Of a stretch of 30,165 nucleotides of DNA, positions 20,067-24,360 are shown piece by piece; positions within the stretch are counted from its first letter, which is position 1; the number at the start of each line of letters is the position of its first letter. Under the pieces are notes generated by a model. The model saw only the letters and a program-made list of their open reading frames with translations. It had not been told where the DNA came from and did not search any database. Source of the stretch: a virus. Made by a program: the position numbers and the translations under genes. The stretch spans positions 1 through 30,165 of IMG/VR virus record IMGVR_UViG_3300037502_001466; one strand, given 5' to 3'.

Positions 20067-20106
20067 AGCCAAAGATTGATCCACAAATAAATGCAATTAG
20101 TATCAT
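20023..20106 (-). CDS. 27-residue single-span membrane peptide
   Basis: The ATG overlaps the upstream stop in an ATGA arrangement, the coupling used throughout this genome. The peptide, MILIAFICGSIFGYAVAYIR followed by FEEDNRF, has one clear hydrophobic span with a charged C-terminal end. It has no similarity to the other frames' products. Small membrane peptides of phages can inhibit host membrane proteins or exclude other phages; the role here is unknown. The overlap with the next gene's start makes it less certain. Confidence 0.45.
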   Translation of the reverse strand: MILIAFICGSIFGYAVAYIRFEEDNRF

Positions 20107-20690
20107 AGTTGAGATTTTAGCCATGTAAAGTTTCTGCCCTCATTAACAAGCCAATCAAAGGTCCATTGCACACATGCACATCGGCACTTTTGGTTGTCAT
20201 CGCCATAGGCAGCTCTAAGTATTTCAACATCATCCTTGCCAAACCTTTTGAGCATTTTGTTAGCCTTTAGATAATCGTACCACTTATCCATCTGGTTAAA
20301 GGGTACTTTCTCAAAGTTTAGCTTGTACATCATTAGCTCATAATCCAACTTCTCTAGGTCTGTCTCTGGAACTTTAGCCTCTTGTATGGTTCGATATCCA
20401 GTAGGGGTCTTTTGTAAGTTATGCCTATCCTTGTTATTATTAGCCCATCTAGCCAGTCTCCTACCGAGGTCCCAGGTTGTCTCTTGCTCAAATCTCATCT
20501 TGGTGTTAGACTTATTAGGCTCTGACCAGTAATCGTAGAACTCTTGCTTCATTTGCTCTGTAAAGGCAAAGGGTTGGATAGCTCTCTTAAAGTCTGCTGC
20601 TCTTGCTTCTATACTTTTCATAGTTGACATATCCCCTCTATATCCAGTCAAGTAGTGGGTGAAGGGGTTTGAGCCTAGCATCCAAAACAT
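20103..20690 (-). CDS. DUF7833-like protein, probably replication-associated
   Basis: 195 residues from ATG at 20690; an ATG at 20630 (MSTMKSIEARAADFKRAIQPF) is an alternative and has an AGAGG upstream. The pattern 'FKRAIQPFAFTEQMKQEFYDYWSEPNKSNTKMRFEQETTWDLGRRLARWANN' matches a domain common at the C-terminus of replication-initiator-like proteins of Bacteroidota and their phages. The remainder is helical and charged, with CRCAC near the C-terminus. It follows the structured non-coding region and is separated from the rest of the leftward operon by a terminator, so it may be controlled independently. Confidence 0.55.
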   Translation of the reverse strand: MFWMLGSNPFTHYLTGYRGDMSTMKSIEARAADFKRAIQPFAFTEQMKQEFYDYWSEPNKSNTKMRFEQETTWDLGRRLARWANNNKDRHNLQKTPTGYRTIQEAKVPETDLEKLDYELMMYKLNFEKVPFNQMDKWYDYLKANKMLKRFGKDDVEILRAAYGDDNQKCRCACVQWTFDWLVNEGRNFTWLKSQL

Positions 20691-20699
20691 GAATAGAAT

Positions 20700-20747
20700 A
20701 TAGAGAATTATAAAAAACCTTTTTGTTTAACTTTTGGCATTCTCTAT
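20700..20747. repeat. Perfect 9-bp inverted repeat upstream of the DUF7833-like gene
   Basis: ATAGAGAAT (20700-20708) and ATTCTCTAT (20739-20747) are exact reverse complements with a 30-nt AT-rich spacer. The left arm ends 10 nt before the ATG at 20690. In leftward mRNA this would form a hairpin next to the start site; on DNA it could be a dimeric operator. Confidence 0.6.
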
Positions 20748-20874
20748 CACACAGAACCCATACATTCCTCGGCATCCAGTGGCCGGTTATCACGCATCTT
20801 TCACTTGACTGTCATGAGTTGTCAGGGGAGGACATTGCTCACACTTGTTTGCGTTACATATTGGTATGATCTGT

Positions 20875-20916
20875 GAGGTTATTATTTGTACTGCCATTAG
20901 TACTGGGTAAAACCTC
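20875..20916. repeat. Nested inverted repeats
   Basis: Outer arms GAGGTT (20875-20880) and AACCTC (20911-20916) enclose inner arms GTACT (20888-20892) and AGTAC (20899-20903) around the loop GCCATT. Both pairs are exact. The arrangement could fold as an RNA hairpin with an internal loop or as a DNA cruciform. It lies immediately downstream of the terminator in the direction of leftward transcription. Confidence 0.5.
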
Positions 20917-20926
20917 GGTAAAAACC

Positions 20927-20978
20927 AAAAAAATAACCCACTGAGGATTGACGTTCGCAGTCGCACCCCAATGGGTTA
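20927..20978 (-). terminator. Leftward intrinsic terminator with long loop
   Basis: On the minus strand TAACCCATTG pairs with CAGTGGGTTA (10 bp, one G-U pair), followed directly by seven T residues. On the plus strand the same position is an A-C mismatch and there is no T-tract, so the element is directional. The 25-nt loop contains a further GAC/GTC pairing. It would end leftward transcripts from the operon 24.7-21.05 kb or from the promoter at 21031-21063. Confidence 0.7.
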
Positions 20979-21027
20979 ATAAGCTCTTTACTAAACAAAG
21001 CACTTAAAAAGTGGCGAACCTTTGTCA
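20927..21027 (-). ncRNA. Candidate ~100-nt small RNA or attenuated leader
   Basis: A promoter with a perfect TATATTTG box should start transcription near 21027, and the terminator just described would end it near 20927. No frame in between is convincing. The product would be a short structured RNA, or, with read-through, a regulated leader for the DUF7833-like gene about 240 nt further on. This is inferred from promoter and terminator alone; no RNA family is recognised. Confidence 0.4.
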
Positions 21028-21030
21028 AAA

Positions 21031-21063
21031 CAAATATACGAAAAAAAAATCAATCTACCAAAA
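21031..21063 (-). promoter_or_regulatory. Leftward Bacteroidota-type promoter
   Basis: On the minus strand TTTTG (21063-21059) and TATATTTG (21038-21031) are separated by 20 nt, matching the Bacteroidota -33/-7 pair (TTTG and TAnnTTTG). A run of nine A/T bases lies between them. The -33 box is inside the end of the DnaA-like gene. Confidence 0.65.
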
Positions 21064-21475
21064 CTAATTTACCTAAGTAATCCACAAATGTTATCTTCTG
21101 ATGTGATTTAACCCTACTGAGTTTCATAGAAATGCCCAAATCTGAGGCTAAGTCTATGACCTTCAAATAGTAAGGGTAAAACTTAGGGTCCTCAGTTTCT
21201 ATGTAATGTTCAATCCTTGCTCTGTAACTACTCATGGTTGAATGGTCTTTGTAGCCTACTAATGGTGCTATCTCTGTAAGTTTTATAGGGCAGTGCTGAT
21301 AAATAAAATATGATAAAGCCATTCTAATGTCTGAAAGCCTAACTTTTTCGCCATGTTTATTCTTAGCTATCTTCCAGTGGTTTCTTCTCTTTACTTCTTG
21401 TAACTGATCTAAAGTAATCCCATAATAGTTACAGACCTCATCAACTAGCTTAACTGCTTGCTCTCGTGTATTCAT
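21050..21475 (-). CDS. Protein with DnaA domain IV-like DNA-binding helix-turn-helix
   Basis: 141 residues. Residues ~45-92 read 'VRLSDIRMALSYFIYQHCPIKLTEIAPLVGYKDHSTMSSYRARIEHY', matching the DnaA domain IV layout, including the signature GxxDHST (residues 74-80) that contacts the DnaA box. The AAA+ ATPase domain of DnaA is absent: residues 1-44 are a short helical lead-in and 93-141 a basic C-terminal tail. It could bind host-like DnaA boxes to start phage replication or compete with host DnaA. It is the last gene of the main leftward operon, next to the non-coding region, and overlaps the previous stop by 4 nt. Confidence 0.7.
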   Translation of the reverse strand: MNTREQAVKLVDEVCNYYGITLDQLQEVKRRNHWKIAKNKHGEKVRLSDIRMALSYFIYQHCPIKLTEIAPLVGYKDHSTMSSYRARIEHYIETEDPKFYPYYLKVIDLASDLGISMKLSRVKSHQKITFVDYLGKLVLVD

Positions 21476-22277: not shown

Positions 22278-22639
22278 AGGTTCATTTCGGCTTTGCGATA
22301 CGATACAATCGTTCTAATGGCATCTAATTGATGGGTGGCAGATGCATTGACCCGGTCAGCCCAGTTCACTAAATAGTTAACCTCTTTTGCATTTGTACCT
22401 ACAAACTTAGTAATAAGAGAGGGGCTTAGTCTTTTATCTAACCCCTGCTCCATAGCTTGCAGCAATCCTTGGTTAATTATCTGGTCTTGGGCTAACTTAG
22501 CCTCTGCGAGTAACTGGCCTGACTTAGCAACCATAATTAACAGATATTCCATCCGCTCTAAAAGCTGATTTGGTTCATGTCCAATAGGGGTCTCTAAGTA
22601 AGCCTGCATCTTAGAAAGGGAGGTCCTTATCTGATCCAT
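22274..22639 (-). CDS. Helical protein of unknown function
   Basis: 121 residues from ATG at 22639 (MDQIRTSLSKMQAYLETPIG); an ATG at 22687 would extend it but deep into the SSB-like gene. Almost entirely helical: 'LLERMEYLLIMVAKSGQLLAEAKLAQDQIINQGL', 'LSPSLITKFVGTNAKEVNYLVNWADRVNASATHQLDAIRTIVSYRKAEM'. Proteins of this size and shape occur beside SSB and recombination genes in Bacteroidota phages. Function unknown. Confidence 0.65.
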   Translation of the reverse strand: MDQIRTSLSKMQAYLETPIGHEPNQLLERMEYLLIMVAKSGQLLAEAKLAQDQIINQGLLQAMEQGLDKRLSPSLITKFVGTNAKEVNYLVNWADRVNASATHQLDAIRTIVSYRKAEMNL

Positions 22640-22868
22640 TATCTTGTGGTTTATAAGTGTCAACAACGGTATTCCAACCGCCACCATCTTTGCGTTCCAA
22701 AATACTAATCTTTAGCTGCTTGTTACCCTGATAGTCGGTTAAGACATCTGGGTTCTCTTTTAGCCATTGAAATAAATCATTAGGCTGAATTATTAGCTGA
22801 CCTTTAACAAACGAGGGGGCATTTTCTCTAGGTGCAAATACCCGAACACCTTTGGGAAACTTTGTCAT
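22611..22868 (-). CDS. Putative single-stranded DNA-binding protein with SSB-like tail
   Basis: 85 residues: a compact beta-rich core (VRVFAPRENAPSFVKGQLII, then LKISILERKDGGGWNTVVDTYKP) followed by an acidic end DNGSDKDLPF. Bacterial SSBs end in D-D-x-PF, the tip that recruits repair and replication proteins, so this ending is suggestive. The core is shorter than a standard OB-fold SSB (~110 residues before the tail). Neighbouring NinG and annealase-like genes support a role in recombination. Confidence 0.5.
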   Translation of the reverse strand: MTKFPKGVRVFAPRENAPSFVKGQLIIQPNDLFQWLKENPDVLTDYQGNKQLKISILERKDGGGWNTVVDTYKPQDNGSDKDLPF

Positions 22869-24330: not shown

Positions 24331-24360
24331 AAAAAATGCCCCAATGTAGAAACATCGGGG
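24331..24360 (-). terminator. Intra-operon leftward terminator
   Basis: On the minus strand CCCCGATGT pairs with ACATTGGGG (9 bp, one G-U pair) around loop TTCT, followed by CA and six T residues. On the plus strand the G-U position becomes an A-C mismatch and there is no T-tract, so it works leftward only. It separates the two promoter-proximal genes from the recombination block and should lower expression of the latter unless read-through is promoted. Confidence 0.7.

Follow-up and report, generated by a model that had tools for sequence, protein, structure and literature searches.

We identified a family of structured RNAs of about 100 nt that lie ahead of replication-initiation genes in related viruses, and the reading that we favor, at somewhat better than even confidence, is that they are conserved terminator-gated leader RNAs that gate these phage genes and also yield the ~100-nt RNA itself. 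In the window (the whole stretch of DNA analyzed, 30,165 nt from IMG/VR virus record IMGVR_UViG_3300037502_001466), the RNA is encoded on the minus strand at positions 20927 to 21026, ends in a U-tract, scores 126 bits with the covariance model, and has covariation support. Comparison among relatives shows, as predicted features of the sequence, the fold and its strand, a pseudoknot, a promoter and a terminator that are both conserved, and a location ahead of replication genes; we further infer that termination may be partial or regulated, thereby setting the initiator level. Synteny by itself is no proof of regulation.

To our knowledge, little is known about how Bacteroidota phages control the timing and dosage of replication initiation, and our literature search found no described RNA at the replication-start step and no description of this element. 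Two of its loops pair in every case, although their sequences differ widely even among near-identical viruses, and this is suggestive of an RNA-based control over viral replication not described before. The viruses carrying it probably infect Bacteroidota, judging solely from the promoter type and from distant phage relatives.

Promoter, fold, and strand of the RNA

The predicted promoter (21031 to 21062, minus strand) is of the Bacteroidota sigma-A type and reads TTTG-N20-TATATTTG, with TTTG at 21062-21059 and, after the N20 spacer, TATATTTG at 21038-21031. An earlier note on this DNA had proposed a leftward-facing Bacteroidota promoter here, and the pattern is indeed present and conserved among relatives: of the 24 contigs closest to the window, almost all keep TATATTTG and, some 20 nt upstream of it, a TTTG, and five members further away have a degenerate box (TATTATTG, TATAATTG). 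The strict promoter pattern has three matches in the window versus 1.3 expected from shuffles; a strict match alone is weak evidence, and the credibility of this putative promoter rests on its conservation. A scan with the same strict pattern found no match on the plus strand near the RNA.

Promoters mapped in Flavobacterium psychrophilum carry a TAnnTTTG box at −12 to −5 (PMC9723704). The window has such a box, together with the TTG/TTTG element about 20 nt upstream that is typical of Bacteroidota sigma-A promoters, and because the box sits at −12 to −5, transcription is predicted to start at the G at 21026 (minus strand), one base before the first helix of the RNA and 1 nt from the start near 21027 on which the earlier note had staked its claim. 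In the alignment of relatives, sequence conservation resumes exactly at 21026, past a variable 4-nt spacer.

The RNA, all of whose parts lie on the minus strand, comprises a 5′ hairpin, a linker, and a terminator hairpin. The 5′ hairpin is closed by helix P1, formed by ACAAAG (21020-21025) and CUUUGU (20995-21000), which pair in the aligned RNAs, and carries the P2 hairpin CACUU-UUU-AAGUG (21001-21013) and a 6-nt bulge. The six P1 pairs are invariant in 16/16 sequences, and P1 is unchanged throughout the first of two subtypes described below; P2 varies with compensation, and three of its four counted pairs show changes on both sides. A linker of variable length, conserved in part in the alignment (20978-20994), leads to the terminator hairpin (20935-20977), which consists of a 12-bp main stem (20977-20966 with 20946-20935), a 3x3 internal loop (UGC/AAU), 3 bp, and a 7-nt loop. 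The U7 tract (20933-20927), preceded by an A, directly follows this stable, G+C-rich stem, an arrangement characteristic of intrinsic terminators; the predicted strength is −20 to −24.5 kcal/mol across 12 sequences. The terminator and U7 of the earlier note, about 50-100 nt beyond the promoter pattern, are therefore retained, and its 10-bp stem is replaced by 12 bp plus the internal loop and 3 bp. A pattern scan allowing loops of at most 8 had for that reason missed the full hairpin. The 112-nt stretch folds better than 198 of 200 shuffles (MFE z = −2.68).

Covariation supports this fold. Among 16 distinct RNAs, standard pairs fill 98.8% of cells (84.8% in shuffles), and the compensatory stem changes in relatives that the earlier note had set as a test are present, with 75 double-change cells versus 23.7 in shuffles. 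The covariation score for the same RNAs is 0.392 versus 0.115 in shuffles, and the signal is lost when partners are slid by 1 to 3 columns (at most 0.068). All six unpaired cells come from L035 alone, which has a 7-nt bulge and sits one column off in the alignment; read directly, its sequence forms 6/6 pseudoknot pairs.

Two wobble pairs in the stem (U-G and G-U) are invariant in 16/16 sequences, and because they would be A·C mismatches on the plus strand, the fold fits the minus strand only, which bears out the leftward RNA that had been proposed from a single G-U pair. These invariant wobbles rule out a DNA-level hairpin or a plus-strand RNA. A short coding gene within the RNA is ruled out by out-of-frame indels and internal stops, and the interval is free of genes, as had been stated, with spacing changes not divisible by three and stops present. 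Neither a conserved leader ORF nor a leader peptide was found, the spacing being 0, 1, or 2 modulo 3 and a start codon often being absent. No family in Rfam 15 matched at its gathering score, and permissive limits returned only weak, sub-threshold matches.

Distribution and genomic setting

Besides the window, the element is present in 35 related viral contigs, of which 22 belong to the first internal-loop subtype (UGC/AAU) and 13 (L062, L064, and 11 new ones) to a second (GGA/GAA or GGA/AAA). Searches with the upstream and downstream genes recovered 17 and 15 viral contigs, respectively, in largely overlapping sets, and the element is found in all contigs from both searches that span the interval; the set of relatives was then enlarged by pattern scans. 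Covariance model scores run from 46 to 127 bits across all members scored, with one convincing copy in each record searched.

Nucleotide and covariance searches found no element in isolated phages, and a weak match in a Riemerella phage (25 bits) was rejected, as the conserved hairpin and loops are both absent. A search for prophages in 84,980 species genomes with the first-subtype pattern gave three chance matches, apparently in coding sequence, and the model found none in 395 Bacteroidota genomes, a search in which few candidates were scored per genome and no positive control was included. Four contigs matching the second-subtype pattern (L150, L154, L157, and L158) were discarded as unrelated and G-rich, with mismatched loops, and the RNA is absent from the distant replication-gene contigs L110-L123.

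In every case where the context was readable, the element precedes replication-initiation genes. The downstream gene in the window group is of the phrog_19415 type; the copy in the window (20103 to 20621, minus strand; 172 aa), which is presumed to be regulated, most likely starts at 20621 rather than 20690, and the Riemerella phage relative of this gene adjoins a replicative helicase gene. In the L163 group the RNA is followed by an O-like protein (phrog_678), in the L160 group by a winged-helix protein, a DUF1376 primosomal protein, and a DnaB helicase, and in L153 by a replication-initiation protein with DnaD/O-like matches. Those pairs of these four kinds of initiator gene that were compared by BLASTP share no significant similarity. 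The occurrence of one RNA design before four dissimilar initiator kinds points to a common control step.

On the other side of the RNA lies a gene for a DnaA-C-like helix-turn-helix protein (21050 to 21475, minus strand); among the bulge-type relatives checked, every one with this gene has it beside the RNA. The match of the protein to a helix-turn-helix like that of DnaA domain IV (E of 5.5e-7) falls slightly short of the Pfam cut-off, and the protein drops to 31% identity among relatives, while the RNA stays similar; it is a candidate binder of nearby DNA or RNA. The early leftward operon of the window is similar to that of Flavobacterium phage 11b. Also in this region are a gene for an 85-aa protein (22611-22868, minus strand) without a family match, whose C-terminal DKDLPF resembles the acidic tail of single-strand binding proteins, and, close to where the leftward operon begins, another terminator-like hairpin (24339-24360, minus strand) of 9 bp followed by CATTTTTTAC.

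A further structured noncoding element of the window, module A (20736 to 20926, minus strand), spans about 190 nt between terminator and replication gene and is also found in L035, L036, L039, L041, L042, L053, L054, L064, L163, and L155. Eleven of its 45 predicted pairs show compensatory changes, its covariation is 0.284 versus 0.094 in shuffles, and it has no Rfam match. A conserved GGATATAGAGGGGATAT stands past module A, just before the gene, even ahead of the O-like gene (L163, L155). Module A is replaced before the same replication gene by module B in L034, L037, L038, L043, L044, L045, and L048 and by module C in L046, L049, and L062; these two are noncoding, highly folded, about 310 to 360 nt long, and dissimilar. 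Module C shows some compensatory changes, and the module B sequences are too uniform for a covariation test. L037, L045, and L048 have an extra stretch of about 370 nt with an apparent open frame that separates module B from the replication gene, roughly 300 to 700 nt past the RNA, and is missing from the other module B phages.

In all three modules the folded part begins directly after the U-tract, which leaves no evident room for a promoter before the downstream RNA, and polymerase would therefore have to pass the terminator. The same follows in the L149/L153/L160 lineage, where the start codon lies 10 to 17 nt past the terminator stem, so that transcription from the leader promoter must pass the terminator to reach the gene. 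The replication gene might instead have a promoter of its own within the modules, either weak or not of the sigma-A type.

A pseudoknot with variable loops

A third part of the structure, absent from the earlier note, joins the two hairpins. The bulge of the 5′ hairpin, a hypervariable strand reading GUUCGC in the window (21014-21019), is complementary to GCGAAC (20953-20958), the last 6 bases of the 7-nt apical loop of the terminator, and both strands are supported by complementarity and covariation. All six pairs form in 20/20 distinct RNAs, comprising 16 alleles and both subtypes (dG of −5.6 to −8.3), and no part of the RNA changes faster than these paired loops.

Loop alleles are independent of relatedness (rho of 0.09). 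L034 and L043 have upstream flanks that are 98% identical and differ at 5/6 bulge positions, and L036 and L046 share one allele with flanks that are merely 60% identical. Alleles are shared despite different P2 and terminator stems (L036/L046 and L035/L048), and single alleles occur with different downstream modules. Recombination of the RNA gene, selection on the loop type, or both could account for this pattern.

In one lineage (L149, L153, L156, L159, L160, and L161), the P1-bulge-P2 unit gives way to a simple hairpin, GUAUG-A[6 nt]-CAUAC, whose 7-nt loop forms a loop-loop kiss with the terminator loop, also of 7 nt. Two alleles of this lineage (GUGCAG/CUGCAC and GAGCGA/UCGCUC) sit in an otherwise identical core, with 3/3 changed bases compensated. 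The pairing thus survives a changed architecture, and this argues strongly that pairing of the loops is itself what matters. The only fast-changing part of the RNA is a helix in which complementarity is always retained, and the prediction is that a change in one loop would kill function and that changes in both would restore it.

The promoter and strong terminator that the RNA has of its own, its compact conserved fold, and its retention ahead of three different modules and several replication genes would also suit a stand-alone small RNA acting in trans on host or phage RNA or protein, with a position that merely reflects early expression. Such an RNA, however, would have no need to stand directly before replication genes in dissimilar lineages; a long conserved single-stranded seed is absent; and no third site tracking the loop alleles was found elsewhere in the phage genomes (152 occurrences tested). 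We consider this explanation unlikely, though deserving of some weight.

Alternatively, terminated RNAs of the same type might kiss nascent leaders and so tune read-through, with the alleles behaving like incompatibility types when phages co-infect a cell. This form of self-typing copy control would fit alleles that do not track relatedness, the true loop-loop kiss of the L149/L160 lineage, and the difference in loop pairing energy, which is −7.6 kcal/mol for self and −1.2 kcal/mol between alleles; the logic is comparable to that of IncK plasmids, in which the RNAI loop bases determine compatibility (PMC10724649). Intramolecular pairing nevertheless accounts for the complementarity without a trans step, random hexamers are also expected to cross-pair little, and all six pairs, with wobbles, can still form in 5/240 cross-allele combinations, and we therefore regard the idea as rather improbable. 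Equally speculative, if a shade less doubtful, is the suggestion that the leader is a phage counterpart of plasmid incompatibility, gauging the copy number of its own type and setting the initiator, with selection during co-infection diversifying the loops. If true, it would account for allele swaps between near-identical phages and for the recurrence of alleles on distant ones, and if loop types act between genomes, co-infecting phages would have an RNA-based means of discriminating own from foreign replication.

Proposed control step and known systems

In the favored reading of a terminator-gated leader, host RNA polymerase would start at 21026 and produce the ~100-nt RNA, which would fold into the 5′ hairpin (P1/P2 with the 6-nt bulge) and the strong intrinsic terminator, and 6 bp between the terminator apical loop and the bulge would lock both hairpins. 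Transcripts halted at the terminator would constitute the ~100-nt RNA, and read-through transcripts would extend via module A into the replication gene (20621-20103). Of the two options offered earlier, a small RNA or an attenuator, the leader option gains ground, with replication genes downstream, but not as a classical base-pair switch: no base-paired antiterminator was found in the element, the best upstream segment reaching −2.3 to −5.7 kcal/mol in 12 sequences. That the terminator is strong and no upstream segment competes with it counts against the favored reading. Opening of the gate by a bound protein or RNA, or by loops pairing in trans, is more likely than by a base-paired antiterminator, and such a protein might bind the kissed hairpins or the internal loop, which is conserved.

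It is very unlikely that the element merely terminates the operon upstream, or that it acts at the DNA level, for instance as an origin hairpin. It does come after the leftward operon, but a terminator needs neither its own promoter nor a conserved 5′ hairpin, the invariant wobbles fit RNA from just one of the two strands, and the pseudoknot covariation also speaks against this explanation. A packaging-type RNA that forms oligomers through variable interlocking loops can be set aside as most improbable: phi29-type pRNAs likewise differ in interlocking loop sequence, with function and dimerization energetics retained (PMC5340915), but this is the sole likeness, and the RNA here is linked to replication genes instead of terminase or portal and is fused to an intrinsic terminator.

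With phi29-type prohead RNA (PMC5340915) the element shares a phage origin, a comparable length, and variable complementary loops, whereas it adjoins replication genes, ends in a terminator, has no Rfam match, and carries loops that can pair intramolecularly. Plasmid antisense RNAI (I-complex, IncK; PMC10724649) similarly lies ahead of initiator genes and has loops that vary among close relatives and might determine specificity; here, in contrast, the RNA and the initiator gene are on the same strand and both complementary strands are in one molecule, and no opposite-strand regulator of the plasmid antisense type was identified, the strand of the fold being that of the replication gene. Among phages, Flavobacterium phage 11b and Cellulophaga phage phi12:1 have a portal gene related to that of the window (26 to 28% identity), and phage 11b has a related replication-type gene as well; a search of both genomes did not detect the RNA.

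Attenuators and riboswitches in intrinsic-terminator leaders resemble the element in their succession of promoter, short structured leader, terminator, and gene and in having a leader pseudoknot. The element differs from them in lacking a base-paired antiterminator, a leader peptide, and an Rfam match, and in that its pseudoknot is the most variable part. Structured terminator leaders are a known general kind of control; what appears to be new is this RNA family, together with the variable helix formed by its kissing loops and its linkage to initiator genes that are dissimilar.
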